A DNA stretch of 64,000 bases from Xanthomarina spongicola (GTDB lineage Bacteria > Bacteroidota > Bacteroidia > Flavobacteriales > Flavobacteriaceae): positions 372,001 through 436,000 of the forward strand of contig NZ_QGGP01000001.1 in assembly GCF_003148645.1 (NCBI RefSeq). Reading direction: 5' to 3'. Shown in pieces: positions 15,601 through 64,000 of this stretch (its first letter is position 1; the number at the start of each line of letters is the position of its first letter). The notes under the pieces were generated by a model. The model was given only the letters and a program-made list of their open reading frames with translations. It ran no database searches and had not been told where the DNA came from. The position numbers and the translations under genes are program-made.

Positions 15601-17874
15601 GATTTGGAAATTTCTATTGACGATGGAGCTAATTGGAATAATATCTTTACTGTTAATAGAGATTTAGGGAACCAATGGAATTTTCAAAACATCGATTTAA
15701 ATAGCTATATAGGTGGGAATGTAAAGTTTAGATTTATTGGGTTAACAGGAGATGGATGGGCTAGCGATATAGCGATTGACCATATTGGACTTACAGATAC
15801 ATTTGATCCTATCTATTGTGATTCAAATGGAAATAACACTAACGATGAATATATTGGTCGCGTTCAATTAAATTCCATTGATAATAATAATTTAAACCCT
15901 GGAATTACCAGTCAAGGATATTCTGATTACACAAATTTAAGTACAGATTTATATAGTGGCACACAATATACTATAACGATAACGCCATATTGGACAGGAA
16001 CTGTTTATAATGAAGGATATGCTGTATGGATTGATTATAATCATGATGGTGATTTTGATGATGCTGGCGAACAAGTTTGGACGCAAGTAGCTACACAAAA
16101 CACACCAGTATCAGGAAGCTTTACTGTCCCAGACGATATCGCATTCGAAGAAAGCACTAGAATGAGAGTGTCTTTAAAATGGAATGGTATTCCAACATCC
16201 TGTGAGTCTTTTGGTTATGGCGAAGTTGAAGATTACACCATTAATTTAAAATACAATGGTCTTCTTTATTTAAATAGTTCTTGGATTCCTAATGCACCAT
16301 CAGGAGCTACAGGTAGTGATAATGCATTGGTTTTTAATGGAACCTATAATGTAAATACAGATGTTACTGTAAACAATTTAATAGTAAATTCATCAGCTGC
16401 TATAGAAATTCCTGAAGCACTATCGATGTATGTTAATGGAGATTTAGTGAATAATGGAGATTTGACACTAAATTCGGTTTCAGATCAGTATTCAAGTTTA
16501 ATAGTATTAGGAACTGCAACAGGCGATGTTACATATAATCGACATGTAAATATGAATGCGAGTTCAGGAGGAAACGATTTAATTTCTGCACCTGTAACTG
16601 GACAAACATTTGGTGCTTTTGCAGCAGCTAACCCTAATATTTTTTCTAATCCATCTAATCTTTCAGAAAAAATGTTTGGACCATTTGATAAAGCTTCAGA
16701 ATCATATTTAACTTATGATACAGATATCCCTTCAGAAGCAGCAGTAACTCTAGATTCAGGAATTGGTTATAGAGCAGCAACCTCAGATGATGGCACATTG
16801 ACCTTTAAAGGGAATGTGAATACAGGTGATGTATTTATCAATATATATAATTTAGGGACAATTTATCCAGAATGGAATTTAATAGGAAACCCTTATCCTT
16901 CATATATTAAATTAGCAGATTTCTTAAATCCAACAAATTTGAATCAGCTCTTGAGTACAAGTGCTGCAATATATGGATATAACGATGATACTGTTGTAGG
17001 TGGAAAATGGACGATTTTAAATTTAGCTTATTCCCAAAATAATCCAAATGAAATATTGACACCAGGACAAGGTTTCTTAGTGTCATCAAGAGTAGGAGGA
17101 GGAACTATAACGTTTTCACCAGGATATAGAACTATAGGGTCTAGCGACGATTTTATTATAGGTAGAGAAAACCAAAATAATGATATCGCTTATTTAAGCC
17201 TGCAAATGGCAAGTGCTTCAGACACATATAATACGGATTTTTATTTTACAGATAACGCTTCACGTGGTTTAGACCTTGGCTATGATGCTACAGTATTTAA
17301 TGGTGTTGCTCCTGATTTTGCTATTTATTCTGCTTTAGTTGAAGAGAATGAAGGAGAAGATATGGCTATTCAATCTGTAGGATATAATGAGTTTAGTAGT
17401 GATATAGTTATTCCTTTAGGAATAAATGCAGCTCAAGGACAACAGATAACAATTAGTATTGATAATTCTAGTTTACCAGAAAATGTTGAGGTGTTTCTTG
17501 AAGATAATTTATCTAACACATTTACATTATTGAATAATTCTGATTATGTTTTTACAGCAGACGCAAATTTATCAGGTACTGGACGTTTCTTTTTACGATT
17601 TGAATCTGAAACATTGTCAAGCCCTGAAAATGCTTTAAATTATGTGTCAATATTTACACCAAAAAGCGTTAAATCAATTATAATTAAAGGACAGATTAAT
17701 GAAAATACATCAGCAAAATTATATGATATTCAAGGAAGATTGGTGTACTCTACAACTTTAAAAGAGGGTACGTCTTTAAATGAAATTGATGTTAAAGATT
17801 TTAGTGTAGGTGTTTATGTTATTAAACTGGAGAGTGCTACTCAAGGTAAAACTCAAAAAATTATACTTAAATAA
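12697..17874 (+). CDS. secreted reprolysin-type metalloprotease with T9SS type A tail
   Basis: 1725 residues. Signal peptide 1-20 (ends VYAQ); propeptide-like region; M12B-like protease domain with the zinc motif HEMGHQFGGYH (His353, Glu354, His357, His363) and the Met-turn candidate STIMGYAG. Next come an Ig-like/PKD-like stretch, an fn3-like unit (about 770-865, FWRVRAVNNC), a MAM-like domain (about 875-1035, starting YLETFDSGIGDW), a GEVED domain (about 1045-1185, ending GYGEVEDYTINL), a beta-rich region, and a C-terminal type A sorting domain (about 1645-1725, with KLYDIQGRLVYS and GVYVIKLESATQGKTQKIILK-like end). It is predicted to be exported by Sec, then by T9SS. The natural substrate is unknown. 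Confidence 0.93.
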   Translation: MKKNILFLVSVVIMSVNVYAQNNFWTNANTNDFRTELKDRVSIPTSYRTVSFNAEAFLNFASNARSMFSERQGNTLELVLPMPNGENERFTLEDSEIMHPELANKFPQLKTYSGKGIDDKTATIRITYSPYFGFSGMILSGKHSTVYIDPITKDNVFYMSYYRKELVQTSIDFQCYTDESSDGLINRVEDVQRVDALGDCNLRRYRLAQSCTGEYAQYHIAQAGGSTGNTAGDKAIVQAAMNVTMNRVNGIYQRDLGIIMQFVANNDLVIYLNAGSDPWNGEYNTTTAQTLDSQIGVNNYDIGHNFNTSGGGNAGCLDCVCLAVSQSGTHKGRGYTGRAAPIGDPFDIDYVAHEMGHQFGGYHTQSNQSCRSGSGATEVEPGSASTIMGYAGICSANVQNASDDYFAYVNIRDIVTSINFGNGSGCAELIVSNNSGPTADAGLNYSIPSSTPFKLEGIGTDADDSGLTYCWEQNDPENPGSNSAPTSTRAVGPMFRSLLPVAEPYRYMPNISAIVNNTSPTFEVLPSISRSMEFSFIVRDNNSMSGCTASDLMTVNTVASAGPFLVSTPNTNVTWDTGSTETVTWDVAGTTGNGINAANVDIFLSTDGGFTYPITLALATPNDGSHDISVPNNPGTQNRIMVKASNNIFFDISNTNFTINLSSPTFLLSATPDNNESCTPATADYTIDLTSLLGFNSPVTLSTSGLPSGAIENFSVNPVTPTNSSVLTLDPGTANFGTYIVTVSGVGGGITQTYDISYTISAGTLNTITLLSPTDGEVFVSTSPTLSWNTEANADSYEIDVATDVAFSNIIFNQTGETNMSTVASGLSYNTNYFWRVRAVNNCTIGSWSTAWQFTTQDIPACTGTIINTFPYLETFDSGIGDWTQASGDDGNWTLDANGTPSGGTGPSDDITGGGNYFFTEASSNGSPGEVGANATVILNSPCYDLSGLTEAYFSFYYHMYGGDIGTLDLEISIDDGANWNNIFTVNRDLGNQWNFQNIDLNSYIGGNVKFRFIGLTGDGWASDIAIDHIGLTDTFDPIYCDSNGNNTNDEYIGRVQLNSIDNNNLNPGITSQGYSDYTNLSTDLYSGTQYTITITPYWTGTVYNEGYAVWIDYNHDGDFDDAGEQVWTQVATQNTPVSGSFTVPDDIAFEESTRMRVSLKWNGIPTSCESFGYGEVEDYTINLKYNGLLYLNSSWIPNAPSGATGSDNALVFNGTYNVNTDVTVNNLIVNSSAAIEIPEALSMYVNGDLVNNGDLTLNSVSDQYSSLIVLGTATGDVTYNRHVNMNASSGGNDLISAPVTGQTFGAFAAANPNIFSNPSNLSEKMFGPFDKASESYLTYDTDIPSEAAVTLDSGIGYRAATSDDGTLTFKGNVNTGDVFINIYNLGTIYPEWNLIGNPYPSYIKLADFLNPTNLNQLLSTSAAIYGYNDDTVVGGKWTILNLAYSQNNPNEILTPGQGFLVSSRVGGGTITFSPGYRTIGSSDDFIIGRENQNNDIAYLSLQMASASDTYNTDFYFTDNASRGLDLGYDATVFNGVAPDFAIYSALVEENEGEDMAIQSVGYNEFSSDIVIPLGINAAQGQQITISIDNSSLPENVEVFLEDNLSNTFTLLNNSDYVFTADANLSGTGRFFLRFESETLSSPENALNYVSIFTPKSVKSIIIKGQINENTSAKLYDIQGRLVYSTTLKEGTSLNEIDVKDFSVGVYVIKLESATQGKTQKIILK

Positions 17875-59510: not shown

Positions 59511-60008
59511 TTAGGTAATTTTTACTACTTTTTTTGTAGATAATTTTTTGGCTTCTGGCTTTTTTTCTAAATCTATTTTTAAAATACCATCTTTATAAGC
59601 CGCTTTTACTTCTTGATTTAAATCAATTGAGTCTGGTAATGTTGAAGATCTTTTAAAAGATTTATAACTAAACTCTTTACAAGTATAGTTGTCTTCTTCC
59701 CCTTCTGTTTTTTCACTTTTTTTACCTTCAACATTCAGTACATTACCATCTATGGTAACTTCAAAATCTTTCTTATTAAAACCAGGTGCTGCAAATTCAA
59801 TTTCAAAATTGTTCTTTTGCTCTTTCACATTCATTGATGGCATAAGGCTATCTTCTTCCAAAAAATCACCATTAAATGCATCATCGAATTTAAAGAAATT
59901 TTGAAGTTCATTTAGGCTAGATGGAAATAGTCTATCTTCCCAAGGTGACAATAATCTGTTTCTAAATGGAGATAATTGTCTGTTTCTGCGTTTTACAAGT
60001 GTTGTCAT
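59511..60008 (-). CDS. Hsp20/alpha-crystallin small heat-shock protein
   Basis: 165 residues. An N-terminal basic start, then a crystallin domain (about 50-155) with EQKNNFEIEFAAPGFNKKDFEV and DGILKIDLEKKPEAKKL; the C-terminal KVVKIT replaces the usual IxI. It is an ATP-independent holdase. The upstream FNR-like box (60077-60088) and -7 element suggest control by oxygen or stress signals rather than heat alone. Confidence 0.93.
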   Translation of the reverse strand: MTTLVKRRNRQLSPFRNRLLSPWEDRLFPSSLNELQNFFKFDDAFNGDFLEEDSLMPSMNVKEQKNNFEIEFAAPGFNKKDFEVTIDGNVLNVEGKKSEKTEGEEDNYTCKEFSYKSFKRSSTLPDSIDLNQEVKAAYKDGILKIDLEKKPEAKKLSTKKVVKIT

Positions 60009-60045
60009 AATATATATTTTTTGGATTAAACATTAATTAATGTTG

Positions 60046-60053
60046 CTAAATTA
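60046..60053 (-). promoter_or_regulatory. -7 element of hsp20
   Basis: TAATTTAG on the minus strand (one mismatch to TAnnTTTG), centred exactly 33 bp from the palindrome at 60077-60088. The expected start site is near 60041, within a 14-bp palindrome (60030-60043). Confidence 0.55.
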
Positions 60054-60076
60054 ATTATCAAATATATTTTCTAAAA

Positions 60077-60088
60077 TGATATATATCA
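60077..60088 (-). promoter_or_regulatory. FNR/Crp-type box upstream of hsp20
   Basis: TGATATATATCA (TGAT-N4-ATCA), followed by GTT, the same form as the boxes at 61790, 62887 and 63037. The remainder of the 458-base gap (60089-60403) shows no gene or clear structure. Confidence 0.65.
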
Positions 60089-60403
60089 GTTTGTTAGGGT
60101 AGTTATTAACTTAGTATCTAATGTTTAATTACACTTTGTAAGTATTGAAACATTTGTAACTTAAAACCTGTAAACTCTAAAATTAATTTATAAATTTTGA
60201 GTTCTAAATCGCCATGCTCTATTAATAAAATAGATATCAAAAGCTAAATCTTTACATTCAATTTTATTAATTTGATGTGTTATTTTATAAACTAGCATGC
60301 TCAATAGCTTTATTATAATTCAATTATAGAAATTGAAATATTTTCTTTAGTGATAATATAGAATGTAGAGTTGAGATATTTCAGCTTCTAATTTTATTTA
60401 AAA

Positions 60404-60437
60404 GAAAACTGCCAAAAAAAATATTTTGACAGTTTTC
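60404..60437 (-). terminator. terminator of the usp-BaeRF unit
   Basis: GAAAACTGCCAAAA and TTTTGACAGTTTTC pair with one mismatch on plus that becomes a G-U pair on minus, so it folds best in the minus-strand RNA; a T-run follows. Confidence 0.8.
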
Positions 60438-60466
60438 AACCAACCAACTAATAAATAGACAAATAT

Positions 60467-60874
60467 TTAATTTGACTTAAAGAAGTCTCTTACCCAAGCC
60501 TTTACTTGGTTTTCGGTCATGCTGTCTGCTTTTTTAACAGCTTTTATTTTAGTAATCAAAGGTTTATAATTGTTATGCAATTCTTCATTAAATTTTTTAT
60601 TAGTTTCGGCTGGACCAAATATTACTAATGCATCTGTATCTTTAATTTCTGAAGCGAGAGACTTAAAATACTTTTTAAGTTGTTGTTTTTCACGATCTAG
60701 GTATTTACTATCTTGAACAACATCTTGTGGACCACCTTTAAATCGAGTTCCAGAACCACCATGAATGCGATAATGATCGACATTTGATGTAATTGTGTGT
60801 AACGTCTCAACACCATTTTCTATAGTGACAATGTGTGCTTTGTTTTTATCTAACCAAATACCTGTATTTTTCAT
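60467..60874 (-). CDS. BaeRF/eRF1-domain-related small protein
   Basis: 135 residues. The start GIWLDKNKAHIVTI, a HxxHGG-like stretch (DHYRIHGGSG), then LKKYFKSLASEIKDTDALVIFGPAETNKKF and a C-terminal MTENQVKAWVRDFF match the small eRF1-like translation-associated family often linked to stress loci. The family is known from its similarity to eRF1 domains; its function is not established. It lies 12 bases after the usp gene and shares its promoter. Confidence 0.72.
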   Translation of the reverse strand: MKNTGIWLDKNKAHIVTIENGVETLHTITSNVDHYRIHGGSGTRFKGGPQDVVQDSKYLDREKQQLKKYFKSLASEIKDTDALVIFGPAETNKKFNEELHNNYKPLITKIKAVKKADSMTENQVKAWVRDFFKSN

Positions 60875-60886
60875 TTTTATATTTTT

Positions 60887-61741
60887 TTAATTTCTTAAAT
60901 CATGCATTACTAAAATTGGTACTTTAGAATGAAATGCTATTCCTTTTACCATTGGCTTAGTTAAAATGCTTCCAAAAAAATTATGCTTTTTATTAATAAA
61001 TGCTACCATATCGCTATCTCTACTTTCTACAAATATGTTTACAGCAGACTCTACAGTATCATGTGATATGGAATGAAATGTATACTTAACACCTTCAAAA
61101 ATTTCTTGGAGCAATTGTTTACGTTCTTTTTGGTTTTCATTTAATTCATTCTCTTCAGAAACATGTAGTATTGCTATAGTTGCATCACATTTTTTACTTA
61201 TGTCTGTTAAATAACTTAATTCTCGTCTTTTGTAATGTGTTTCATAGCTTGTAGGGAATACAATTTCTTTAGGTAAACTCTGTTTAGCATTTTCTGGAAC
61301 AACAATAACAGGACAGTTGCGAACTTTTTCCATTGCATTAACAGCAACACTACCAAATACAGTGCTTTTATCACTTGATTTGCCTTTAGTGCCCATAATA
61401 ACTATTTCAATATCTTTCTGTTCCACAATATCTTTAATCGCATCTATTGGATTATTGAAGACAGAAATAGTTTTAAAAGTATGTTTAGGGTCACCATGTT
61501 CTTTTATAATAAGTTTATCTAGTAGTTTAGATAAATTATCTTGAGACTCAGTTTTTGCCTCTTCAAAAAACTCACTATCTGTCCCTAAATTCATGATATT
61601 TTCTATAAGACTGTTAGTACCCAAGAAGGCGTTAAGTAAATAAAAATCACAAGTTTCATTCTTATATAATTGTAAGGCATAATTAATTGCCAACCAGGAG
61701 TTATTGGAAAAATCGGTAGGAAGTAGAATTTTACGTTTCAT
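60887..61741 (-). CDS. tandem-domain universal stress protein
   Basis: 284 residues with two Usp domains. The first ends with the ATP-binding motif GTKGKSSDKSTVFGS (G-2x-G-9x-G-S) and VIVVPENAK; the second (about 150-284) lacks the full motif and ends PILVMHDL. UspA proteins act in stress tolerance, often in low oxygen or stationary phase. Upstream box 61790-61801 and -7 element 61759-61766 suggest an FNR-like activator. A paralogue lies at 63253. Confidence 0.92.
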   Translation of the reverse strand: MKRKILLPTDFSNNSWLAINYALQLYKNETCDFYLLNAFLGTNSLIENIMNLGTDSEFFEEAKTESQDNLSKLLDKLIIKEHGDPKHTFKTISVFNNPIDAIKDIVEQKDIEIVIMGTKGKSSDKSTVFGSVAVNAMEKVRNCPVIVVPENAKQSLPKEIVFPTSYETHYKRRELSYLTDISKKCDATIAILHVSEENELNENQKERKQLLQEIFEGVKYTFHSISHDTVESAVNIFVESRDSDMVAFINKKHNFFGSILTKPMVKGIAFHSKVPILVMHDLRN

Positions 61742-61758
61742 TGCTTCAATTATTTAAA

Positions 61759-61766
61759 TAAAGATA
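61759..61766 (-). promoter_or_regulatory. -7 element of the usp operon
   Basis: TATCTTTA on the minus strand, one mismatch to TAnnTTTG, centred 33 bp from the box at 61790-61801. Confidence 0.55.
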
Positions 61767-61789
61767 AGTTGTAACTAGTTGGTAATAAA

Positions 61790-61801
61790 TGATATATATC
61801 A
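61790..61801 (-). promoter_or_regulatory. FNR/Crp-type box upstream of usp
   Basis: TGATATATATCA followed by GTTT, identical in its core to the hsp20 box and 49 bases before the usp start. Confidence 0.65.
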
Positions 61802-61865
61802 GTTTAAGATCTATTTTTTTGAAGGAATGACCATAAAAGGAATATTTAATTGGAAACCAATTTGA

Positions 61866-62132
61866 TTAATAGTCGATTTAAAAAACAAATTTTCAAAAAC
61901 AAGTAAAACTTTGGAAAACGTCTATATTGCTTTAAAGAAGCATGGTACTCCAAAACTAATACACATTGTTTCGGTTATTGGTTCAAAAACTGGAGTGGGA
62001 TATGTTAAAAAGATTTTTCCAGAAGACACACATTTATGGATAGCCACAATCGACGATACCTTAAGTAGTAAGGGTTATATAATTCCTGGACTTGGTGATG
62101 CTGGAGATCTATCATTTGGTCTAAAACTCTAG
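61866..62132 (+). pseudogene. upp: C-terminal remnant of uracil phosphoribosyltransferase
   Basis: The frame from 61866 to 62132 encodes about 88 residues, of which the last 70 match the end of UPRT: LENVYIALKKHGTPKLIHIV, then HLWIATIDDTLSSKGYIIPG and the uracil-binding end GLGDAGDLSFG. The N-terminal two thirds, including the PRPP-binding region, is missing and the upstream sequence has stops. The only starts (TTG at 61911) give a protein without the active site. It is therefore a broken copy, probably left after deletion or rearrangement. Confidence 0.85.
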
Positions 62133-62149
62133 ACAAATTCTTGTATAAA

Positions 62150-62175
62150 AAAAACGGGAAGCGTAACTTCCCGTT
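62150..62175 (-). terminator. hairpin H1, terminator on minus strand
   Basis: AACGGGAAG (62153-62161) pairs with CTTCCCGTT (62167-62175); on the minus strand eight T follow at once. It is the clearest terminator of the H1-H5 series, but no ordinary gene lies upstream of it on that strand for 1.1 kb. Confidence 0.85.
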
Positions 62176-62220
62176 CCAGAAGAGATTAAATTGTTAGAAA
62201 ACCTAATGGTTTAATAACAC

Positions 62221-62310
62221 TTAAAACTCTTCATGACCTCCTAAATTACCAAAATTGGCAATTAAGGCGTGTACTTTAAAGAAACAGGAAGTAGAAACTT
62301 CCTGTTTCAT
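62221..62310 (-). CDS. possible 29-residue peptide overlapping hairpin H2
   Basis: The ATG at 62310 opens 29 codons: KQEVSTSC (coded by H2) then FFKVHALIANFGNLGGHEEF. No Shine-Dalgarno or -7 element is evident. Related but frame-broken copies lie at 62389-62500 (RKQEVPASCF and, in +1 frame, IIANAKAYYGDFEAIF) and near 62560-62670 (RKQEVSTFCFL and, in +1 frame, THRLNIEKCLICNEEF). The relation suggests a tandem family of tiny genes or of noncoding units. Coding is uncertain. Confidence 0.35.
   Translation of the reverse strand: MKQEVSTSCFFKVHALIANFGNLGGHEEF
62281..62308 (-). terminator. hairpin H2
   Basis: GAAACAGGAAGT and ACTTCCTGTTTC pair perfectly (12 bp) around a 4-base loop. In minus-strand RNA the loop is UUCU and a moderately T-rich run follows. 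Confidence 0.6.
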
Positions 62311-62388
62311 CTGAAGATTTTAATGATATTGATTAACTTTTTCTAATCGCTAATATGCAATCATTACTGATTAAAATTAGCTTTTTAG

Positions 62389-62500
62389 TTAAAAAATAGC
62401 TTCAAAATCTCCATAGTAGGCTTTAGCATTTGCAATAATAAAACCTATATGTTTTTTAAAAGCAGGAAGCCGGAACCTCCTGCTTTCTTGAAAAGTTCAA
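62389..62500 (-). pseudogene. frame-broken paralogue of the 29-codon ORF
   Basis: From TTG at 62500 the frame reads KQEVPASCF and stops (62456-62458). Skipping one T at TTTTAAA brings the frame into KKHIGFIIANAKAYYGDFEAIF, similar to the end of the peptide at 62221-62310. A one-base slip or a decayed copy would both explain this; decay or noncoding descent is the simpler reading. Confidence 0.3.
62456..62487 (-). terminator. hairpin H3
   Basis: AAAGCAGGAAG (62459-62469) pairs with CCTCCTGCTTT (62476-62486). The single mismatch on plus becomes a G-U pair on minus. On the minus strand TTTTAAAAAA follows. Confidence 0.6.
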
Positions 62501-62631
62501 TTATATTATTTCTCCTATAGCACTTCCAATAACTCTTTATTACTAAAAAACCATTAGAACTATAAGCCAAATTATAGCATTTGAACTCTTCATTACAGAT
62601 TAAGCATTTTTCAATGTTTAACCTGTGTGTT

Positions 62632-62852
62632 TTATAAGAAACAGAAAGTCGAAACTTCCTGTTTCCTGTTTAGAGTCTAAATATTATCATCTAATTCAAA
62701 TAAACTTCAATGCATCTTTATTTCTAAATAAATTCTAAAAGTCTAATAAATTAAATAATAGTTTTAAACTCAATATATAGTCTATAAGGTCTTACGATTT
62801 ATAGACTTGTATTTTAAAGTTCATCAATGATTCAAAGAGCGTTTTAATTATA
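62632..62852 (-). ncRNA. candidate small RNA from FNR-like box at 62887 to hairpin H4
   Basis: The box (62887-62898) and -7 element TATATTAG (62856-62863) predict a minus-strand start near 62852. Transcription to H4 would give about 210 bases. Within it AGTCTATAA pairs with TTATAGACT (about 62787-62815). Only ORFs of ten codons or less are seen, for example MNFKIQVYKS. No known RNA family is recognised. Confidence 0.4.
62638..62665 (-). terminator. hairpin H4
   Basis: GAAACAGAAAGT and ACTTCCTGTTTC around CGAA. In minus-strand RNA the loop is UUCG and the mismatch becomes a G-U pair, so it folds as minus RNA. T-rich sequence follows. Confidence 0.6.
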
Positions 62853-62855
62853 ATA

Positions 62856-62863
62856 CTAATATA
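62856..62863 (-). promoter_or_regulatory. -7 element of the candidate RNA 62632-62852
   Basis: TATATTAG on minus, centred 33 bp from the box at 62887-62898, the same spacing as at hsp20 and usp. Confidence 0.5.
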
Positions 62864-62882
62864 GAGGATATTACTTTTATTT

Positions 62883-62902
62883 AAACTGATATATATCAGT
62901 TT
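62883..62902 (-). promoter_or_regulatory. FNR/Crp-type box, 20-bp perfect palindrome
   Basis: AAACTGATATATATCAGTTT is perfect over 20 bp, the best of the four boxes. No protein gene lies on either side within 700 bases, apart from the small structures described. Confidence 0.65.
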
Positions 62903-62904
62903 TA

Positions 62905-63002
62905 AGAAAAAAGAAAGTCAAACTTTCGAATGACTTTCTTTTTGATTAATAGCATATTACTAATTGAGAATCCCCCAATTCTCAAGTCAAAATTAAATGA
63001 CT
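62905..63002 (-). ncRNA. candidate small RNA from FNR-like box at 63037 to hairpin H5
   Basis: Box 63037-63048 and the -7 element TATATTTA (63006-63013) predict a start near 63002; H5 ends it after about 95 bases. Near its middle, TTGAGAAT pairs with ATTCTCAA (62964-62985), exposing the loop TGGGGG on the RNA, a possible base-pairing site. The size and layout match FNR-controlled small RNAs. No start codon with a good ORF is present. Confidence 0.5.
62908..62943 (-). terminator. hairpin H5
   Basis: AAAAAGAAAGTCA (62908-62920) and TGACTTTCTTTTT (62931-62943) pair perfectly over 13 bp with a 10-base loop. It works on both strands; on minus it ends the candidate RNA. Confidence 0.75.
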
Positions 63003-63005
63003 ATG

Positions 63006-63013
63006 TAAATATA
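63006..63013 (-). promoter_or_regulatory. -7 element of the candidate RNA 62905-63002
   Basis: TATATTTA on minus, centred 33 bp from the box at 63037-63048. Confidence 0.5.
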
Positions 63014-63036
63014 TTTATATGCTATAAATTAGTAAA

Positions 63037-63048
63037 TGATATCCATCA
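63037..63048 (-). promoter_or_regulatory. FNR/Crp-type box
   Basis: TGATATCCATCA followed by GTT. The centre differs from the other boxes (ATCC, not ATAT) while both half-sites are kept, as expected under selection. The 200 bases to its right (63049-63252) hold no gene that I can support. Confidence 0.6.
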
Positions 63049-63252: not shown

Positions 63253-64000
63253 TTAATTTTGTTGTTCGTGTAGAACTAGAAAAGGTACATCGGTTTGGTA
63301 GCTTATATTTTTAATTGTCGGCAAAAATAAAATTTGCTGAAAATAATTTAAGTTTTTTGCAACCATTACTATCAAGTCTATATTTCTGCTTTCTACGAAA
63401 CATTGCACAGCATCTTCTATTTTATCATTGGTTAAAAAATGAAAACTATTTTTATAACCATTAAAATAATCTTCCAATAGCTCTTTATATTTTTGTTGGT
63501 CTCTATTTAAATTTTCTTTCTTTTTGTTGATATGCAGAATTCTTAAAAAAGAATTAAACTTGTCTAAAACCTCAGAAATGGGTTGTAAAGTTTGAATGTG
63601 ATAAGACAAAGCCAAGTCTGTTGGGAAAGCAATTTCAGTTATACTGTTAAACTTAGCATTTTCAGGAACTACAAGTGTTGTACAATGTACTTTGGTTATA
63701 ACATCACTTGTATTGCTACCAACAATAAATTTTTTTAGTCCAGAAGCGCCTTTGGTTCCCATAACAATCATATCTATTTTTCTTTCTTCTACATGATTTT
63801 TAATTGATTCAATAAAAAAATTATAATCTGTAAGTGAATAAAATCTATGATTTTTATTATGTGGTAATTCTTGTGAAATTCGCTTTAAAAATTGGCGTAA
63901 TTGTTTTTTAGCAAATCTAGTTTGTATTTCCTCAGGAGTAGTTATATAAGACGTATCTAAAGATGTTAAATTACTTAAGCTATTAACATGCAATAGGTAA
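63253..64000 (-). CDS. universal stress protein, tandem domain (start beyond right edge)
   Basis: At least 248 residues are visible; the frame stays open through 64000 (YLLHVNSLSNL), so the TTG at 63993 is not the real start and the N-terminal strand lies outside. ATP-binding motif GTKGASGLKKFIVGS in the first domain (G-2x-G-9x-G-S), then LVVPENAKFNSITEIAFPTD and a second domain ending PFLVLHEQQN. It resembles the usp at 60887 along its length and was probably duplicated from it. Its promoter is outside the window. Confidence 0.9.
   Translation of the reverse strand, partial: YLLHVNSLSNLTSLDTSYITTPEEIQTRFAKKQLRQFLKRISQELPHNKNHRFYSLTDYNFFIESIKNHVEERKIDMIVMGTKGASGLKKFIVGSNTSDVITKVHCTTLVVPENAKFNSITEIAFPTDLALSYHIQTLQPISEVLDKFNSFLRILHINKKKENLNRDQQKYKELLEDYFNGYKNSFHFLTNDKIEDAVQCFVESRNIDLIVMVAKNLNYFQQILFLPTIKNISYQTDVPFLVLHEQQN

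Follow-up and report, generated by a model that had tools for sequence, protein, structure and literature searches.

The stretch of DNA analysed here, called the window throughout, comprises 64,000 nucleotides of the Flavobacteriaceae member Xanthomarina spongicola (assembly GCF_003148645.1, contig NZ_QGGP01000001.1, positions 372,001 to 436,000), and carries near its end four palindromic boxes of the form TGAT-N4-ATCA, each set at one fixed distance from a minus-strand -7 promoter element. We propose, with a probability of roughly 0.7, that these four sites serve as activator-dependent class II promoters within a single regulon, that their reader is a response regulator with a Crp-type output domain encoded beside them, and that two of them would drive noncoding RNAs, here named RNA A and RNA B.

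A class II activator is centred at -41.5 relative to the transcription start. All four boxes are read on the minus strand: box 1 (TGATATATATCA, 60077-60088) lies 5' of hsp20, with the -7 element TAATTTAG at 60046-60053 and a predicted start at 60041; box 2 (TGATATATATCA, 61790-61801) lies 5' of usp, with TATCTTTA at 61759-61766 and a predicted start at 61754; box 3 (TGATATATATCA within the full palindrome AACTGATATATATCAGTT, 62887-62898) lies 5' of RNA A, with TATATTAG at 62856-62863 and a predicted start at 62851; and box 4 (TGATATCCATCA in plus-strand reading, 63037-63048) lies 5' of RNA B, with TATATTTA at 63006-63013 and a predicted start at 63001. A preliminary description of this DNA had reported these boxes and 8-mers at the same positions, and the distance between their centres is indeed 33.0 bp in all four cases. 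The half-sites are palindromic in the manner of Crp/Fnr-type proteins. The window holds six copies of TGAT-N4-ATCA (mean 2.04 in shuffled sequence, with 0/100 shuffles reaching six), and an element TAnnTT(T/A)(A/G) at a gap of 23 nt is found solely at the four reported boxes; the remaining two copies, at 16032 and 59614, have no -7 match at this gap in either orientation. The local chance of 4/4 boxes sharing one gap is about 4e-8 after 120 tries, for an element that was chosen post hoc. According to PMC9723704, the -7 box of Flavobacterium psychrophilum spans -12 to -5, and the predicted starts follow this rule. The box centre therefore falls at -41.5, a fixed distance from the core promoter whose value is borrowed from that other species; this computed centre, and the recurrence of the same spacing in the loci of relatives, bear out the class II placement near -41 put forward earlier.

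We examined the spacing in 80 Flavobacteriaceae loci, the best 80 of 552 relatives, selected through the protein of the neighbouring regulator and independently of the box. Their 1.6 Mb contain 312 copies of TGAT-N4-ATCA, where 4-mer counts predict 57. Of 622 orientations, 214 have TAnnTTwR at gap 23, as compared to 0-10 at each other gap between 0 and 59; five control palindromes gave 0 at gap 23. The longer form (A/C)TGAY-N4-RTCAT has TAnnTTwR at gap 23 in 334/604 sites (mean 3.9 at other gaps), and the full element TAnnTTTG in 112/604 (mean 0.24). The loosest element, TAnnTT, shows a second and trivial peak at gap 0 (69), which comes from the last T of the box itself. The composite logo reads (A/C)TGAYnWAtRTCAT, 22 nt, TAnnTTwR, as drawn from 378 sites whose selection had used a looser version of the logo itself. 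Could such pairs simply arise by chance in AT-rich DNA? The 12-mer TGAT-N4-ATCA alone is barely enriched over the whole X. spongicola genome, with 105 sites versus 86 for the reversed pattern; most copies are therefore probably due to chance, and we discarded the 12-mer by itself as a genome-wide marker. The single sharp gap peak in independent loci (214/622 versus 0-10) nevertheless leads us to reject chance pairing, to which we give practically no credence: the pair is not equally common by chance, the outcome that the preliminary description had named as fatal to its proposal, and the pairing of box and -7 element is real, far beyond chance.

Within the genome the boxes are concentrated around the window end. 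With up to 3 mismatches AACTGATATATATCAGTT is found at 10 places, versus 2 for the control, and all places with 0-2 mismatches, together with two of the six with 3 mismatches, sit in one 17-kb stretch, where four of them are the window boxes and another two lie beyond the end of the window; the other four 3-mismatch places are on different contigs. In the ~20 kb scanned from the window end to 449 kb of the contig there are five copies of TGAT-N4-ATCA, given here in window-equivalent positions. Three have a -7 element at the 23-nt gap, namely 68107(+) with TACTTTAG, 74526(+) with TAATTTTA and 76605(-) with TATCTTAA; the two at 67037 and 71695, both intragenic, have no -7 match at that gap. In total, the 20-kb island of this genome holds ten composite (box plus -7) sites, and 8 of the 27 strict-box matches of the genome fall within the island, which represents 0.6% of its length.

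The preliminary description had noted that two of the boxes precede no ordinary gene, and we can now place a predicted RNA behind each: RNA A behind box 3 and RNA B behind box 4. In relatives, boxes at the equivalent place behind a second usp gene are followed by conserved sequence with no open reading frame (ORF). The predicted RNA A transcript is ~707 nt long (62145-62851, minus strand), contains four structured units, ends in a strong T run after the last hairpin, and has a predicted fold with a z of -14.1 (20 shuffles). Alignment and folding give each unit two stems, one basal and one inner, and a hairpin. We built a covariance model (R1) from 15 sequences, to which the window contributed only unit 1 (core 62634-62776, 97.3 bits); the model recovered the remaining three minus-strand units, which were outside its training set: unit 2 (core 62455-62593, E 7.2e-17), unit 3 (core 62277-62414, E 2e-18) and the short unit 4 with the terminator (core 62147-62234, E 6e-8). 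A further set of 32 units outside training, gathered with the model and aligned without structure, folded de novo into the same structure with 95.6% of cells paired. These contain 104 double-change cells, as compared to a shuffled mean of 26.3 (0/500 shuffles reach 104) and at most 24 for slid structures, and the covariation extends beyond the hairpin to helices 1 and 2. Compensatory changes thus exceed the controls, as is typical of a structured noncoding RNA, with pair counts that lean toward structure because the units were gathered with a structure-containing model. No Rfam family reached its gathering score for RNA A (only tRNA did in the window, and none in the loci of seven relatives, with weak matches staying below threshold), and we therefore reject an Rfam identity.

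We counted 39 arrays of 1-4 units each, 28 with at least two units and 11 with a single one. Of the distances between neighbouring units, 35/41 fall in the range of 172-190 nt, and the median is 183 nt. Hairpins internal to an array are followed by 2.59 T in 9 positions on average and last hairpins by 5.15 in 9 (p 7e-10), and a T run solely after the last hairpin suggests that each array is read through as a single transcript and terminated at its end. A composite box stands 5' of 38 of the 39 arrays (13/13 among training arrays, which were box-selected, and 25/26 among the others) at a median of 116 nt from the first core, whereas random 520-nt windows of the same loci contain a box in 12% of cases. 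The 39 exclude the weak matches in loci L036, L061, L106, L123, L139 and L143, locus L142 (same DNA as L097), the training loci L058 and L083, absent from the plus-strand matches under the default filters, and minus-strand matches that mirror the palindromic hairpin; weak units were kept if the same array holds stronger ones. Among the 26 non-training arrays, L137 duplicates the DNA of training locus L041, and L048 and L049 are nearly identical. In a separate count over genomes, which includes three weak matches, 19/23 arrays have a box; G143 and G088 are among the positives, and the misses are G051, G036 and G181 (weak) and G037 (at a contig edge).

RNA A might alternatively be a string of terminator-like or repeated elements with no function of their own, since hairpin 3 is terminator-like and 11 of the 39 arrays have only one unit. 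The covariation of helices 1 and 2, the box directly 5' of nearly every array and the missing T run after internal hairpins all speak against this, and we consider it very improbable. As to RNA A itself, we infer from the repeated module either a cluster of small RNAs or a multivalent decoy. The broader proposal would be a new class of bacterial regulatory RNA, in which a ~180-nt module of three hairpins is repeated up to four times on one transcript. Such an RNA would act on an RNA-binding protein as its multivalent decoy or scaffold, or else comprise a cluster of sibling small RNAs; it would be inherited together with a kinase-driven Crp-type regulator, stand under its control, and form the post-transcriptional arm of a stress regulon in a lineage lacking Hfq. 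We put this forward tentatively, at somewhat under even odds. Two side observations concern the RNA A sequence. A GUUCUUU-like stretch is present near the 5' end in 14/16 first units inspected. In L036, L043 and L053 the sequence behind RNA B and a second box resembles RNA A but has diverged from it and has another hairpin, GCGAGAAAG...CTTTCTCGC; only that of L036 is reached by the RNA A model (E 0.025).

RNA B is less certain than RNA A. It is predicted as a ~97-nt minus-strand transcript (62905-63001) that contains GCTATTAATC and closes with an intrinsic terminator directly adjoining box 3; its predicted fold has a z of -5.58. The sequence GCTATTAATC just 5' of a terminator, 84-162 nt past a composite box, recurs in seven distinct loci (that of X. 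spongicola, L036, L043, L053, L088, L133 and L097, whose DNA is also that of L142); among the remaining candidates, L062 has no good terminator and L077 has none. The mark of RNA B, CTATTAATC, has a composite box upstream in 10/52 places. Scrambled 9-mers average 1.2, yet one of them, ATTAATTCC, gave 14/83. The scramble control being imperfect, the case for RNA B rests on the combination of GCTATTAATC, terminator and box. RNA B also contains GCUAUUAAUC.

Concerning the reader, the leading candidate is a kinase-adjacent response regulator with a Crp-type output, which appears likelier than FNR proper. Its gene (350 amino acids, window-equivalent 64184-65236, minus strand, 3' end 184 bp past the window) is predicted to encode a receiver (Response_reg, E 9.4e-27), a cNMP-binding domain and a Crp-type helix-turn-helix (HTH), and a FixK-like profile matches it. 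The upstream gene, which overlaps it, codes for a histidine kinase with PAS domains (626 amino acids, window-equivalent 65236-67116, L029:6236-8116, minus strand) and with HisKA and HATPase_c domains. This linkage is conserved, as a kinase-length ORF lies directly 5' of the regulator in 79/81 loci, both exceptions being at contig ends. The N-terminal cysteine cluster of the FNR type is not present on the response regulator, which starts with its receiver domain. We found the regulator in 86 of 199 genomes of the family (E <= 1e-40). Strict boxes number 14.1 per genome in these 86 and 6.8 in the 113 genomes without it (controls 2.6 and 2.7), and these findings make the response regulator the leading candidate.

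The distribution of RNA A points the same way. A covariance model search identified it in 27 of the 199 Flavobacteriaceae genomes, some of the matches being weak; 25 of the 27 also have the regulator (Fisher p 1.2e-8), and in 22 RNA A lies within 15 kb of the regulator gene. The distance is 38 kb in G120, and in G036 a weak match is on another contig. In wider sampling, model R2 gave 8/296 in an order sample and 5/247 in a phylum sample, two samples that overlap and are rich in the same family, to which all matches belong except one borderline case (E 8e-4). As a separate observation, G061 carries two RNA A arrays (L128, L129), each beside a different one of its three regulator copies, and these two regulators are 44% and 66% identical to the query.

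Several points, like the low genome-wide enrichment of the 12-mer and the structural bias in gathering RNA A units, weigh against the proposal. The full consensus TAnnTTTG is found in 0/4 of the window -7 elements. RNA A and regulator are 480 kb apart in G125. The 113 genomes without the regulator still have boxes above control (6.8 versus 2.7), and the stand-alone FNR-like protein encoded on contig 6 of X. spongicola, whose genome has three HTH_Crp_2 genes, has a recognition helix that is similar by eye, so that shared or other readers are possible. Moreover, G138 has a boxed RNA A array, no full-length regulator and three other Crp/Fnr-type matches, which excludes that the box requires the response regulator in every genome; G051 likewise has an RNA A match without a full-length regulator. 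The same promoters and RNAs could thus be read by the FNR-like protein of contig 6, which has a cysteine pair at its N-terminus (by eye), or by several Crp/Fnr proteins sharing the box. The doubled box number in regulator-bearing genomes, the clustering of boxes around the regulator gene and the proximity of RNA A to it in most genomes argue for the response regulator, and we regard another or shared reader as unlikely, although it is by far the most serious of the alternatives. Genomes that lack the response regulator also carry box variants such as ATGACATATGTCAT above control, which suggests that a sister box serves a second and wider Crp/Fnr regulon.

The kinase offers some indications on the signal. 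That of X. spongicola has a LOV-like domain between two PAS domains, which carries the flavin-reactive cysteine motif of LOV proteins (NCRFLQ), and the closest solved chains include LOV proteins. The motif NCR(F/I)LQ is present in 26/79 kinases of the related loci, with shorter kinases (~414 amino acids) lacking it, and the LOV-like domain is therefore not a general feature of these kinases. His 64 of the first PAS domain is retained in 76/79 kinases; we take it to resemble the ligand position of FixL, and non-haem PAS domains may share it. We infer low oxygen or redox as the signal, perhaps with light in part of the lineage; since the LOV-like domain occurs in only part of it, the regulon may there join light with oxygen or redox signals.

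On the preferred reading, in which the response regulator is the reader, the PAS histidine kinase would phosphorylate the neighbouring receiver/cNMP-binding/Crp-HTH protein, and phosphorylation would most likely let it act as a class II activator. The regulator would bind (A/C)TGAY-N4-RTCAT centred at -41.5 and recruit the sigma-A polymerase to a weak -7 element. The output would consist of Usp proteins and Hsp20, in relatives also of others such as a cbb3 oxidase, as well as RNA B (~97 nt) and RNA A as one ~700-nt transcript terminated after its last unit. Both RNAs, if transcribed as predicted, would act post-transcriptionally.

The kind of promoter is already known, and what sets this case apart is the architecture of the candidate reader and the tandem RNA. 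Class II FNR/CRP promoters of E. coli share a TGA-N6-TCA-type palindrome centred at about -41.5; here, however, the core element is of the Bacteroidetes -7 kind (TAnnTTTG type) instead of a sigma-70 -10, and the adjacent regulator is a response regulator. The FixL-FixJ-FixK pathway likewise brings together a PAS kinase, a receiver and a Crp-type HTH, whereas here receiver and Crp-type output are fused and the kinases of part of the lineage include a LOV-like domain. FnrS and other FNR-controlled small RNAs of Proteobacteria are alike in being noncoding RNAs from an Fnr-type promoter, a likeness of promoter alone; in contrast, RNA A has tandem units, and no match to Hfq (PF17209) was found in the X. 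spongicola genome (99.95% complete). CsrB-type decoys similarly have repeated hairpins on one transcript and possibly act as multivalent decoys, but the units of RNA A are ~180-nt modules. The Rfp RNAs of F. psychrophilum are, according to PMC9723704, also independent flavobacterial transcripts, many of them structured. Being compared by description only, RNA A or RNA B may equal a published Flavobacterium transcript such as an Rfp RNA. Titles and abstract openings of the open literature, a scope that leaves aside subscription papers and supplements, do not describe this regulon or RNA, nor do the accessible parts of PMC9723704, PMC2864571 and PMC7366714. The last of these reports no obvious Hfq or ProQ homologue in Bacteroides. 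Little is understood of how small RNAs act in bacteria that lack Hfq, and an RNA composed of repeated modules behind a single predicted switch would provide a direct entry point. More generally, this Bacteroidetes family gains a testable class II promoter code, in which a box centred at -41.5 is paired with an unusual -7 element, together with a candidate reader whose gene adjoins the box and a structured RNA family in the same regulon.

Comparative evidence supports one Crp/Fnr-type class II regulon that would unite hsp20, usp and the noncoding RNAs, as the preliminary description had proposed; its reader has been amended from FNR proper, and its BaeRF member is weak. In the window, hsp20 (59511-60008, minus strand, 165 amino acids) matches Pfam HSP20 with E 1e-22 and usp (60887-61741, minus strand, 284 amino acids) matches Usp with E 2.1e-21. 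The ORF 3' of usp that had been labelled BaeRF (60467-60874, minus strand, 135 amino acids) is at best possibly BaeRF-like, its matches to eRF1_2 (E 0.0035) and baeRF_family5 (E 0.0043) being below the curated cut-offs. A second usp gene (280 amino acids, 63253-64000 and continuing to window-equivalent 64095, minus strand) has a box and -7 element at window-equivalent 64147. Over 81 loci, an ORF of at least 70 amino acids or one cut by a contig end starts within 300 nt of 347/378 composite matches, a count that includes chance matches. The largest group is the Usp cluster (164 matches, 79 loci), followed by a 138-aa family (35), a WG-repeat protein (21), Hsp20 (20), a CcoN-like oxidase (16, ~216 nt off and after a small ORF), a PNPOx-like protein (14), a DnaJ-like protein (9), the kinase gene itself (8) and an HPF-like protein (5), the CcoN-, PNPOx-, DnaJ- and HPF-like labels being given by eye. 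In F. psychrophilum, cbb3 is strongly induced by oxygen limitation, and Crp/Fnr is nowhere named in the main text of that study (PMC9723704).

Other boxed genes of the X. spongicola island lie at window-equivalent 67218-77277, and include the 138-aa family with a DUF302 protein, a PepSY-like protein, the WG-repeat protein with an M50 protease and ABC genes, and a C_GCAxxG_C_C redox protein. Finally, a 73-aa fragment resembling the C-terminus of uracil phosphoribosyltransferase (61911-62132, plus strand) is convergent with the end of RNA A, and at the corresponding place L031 has a 217-aa ORF of the uracil phosphoribosyltransferase-like kind.

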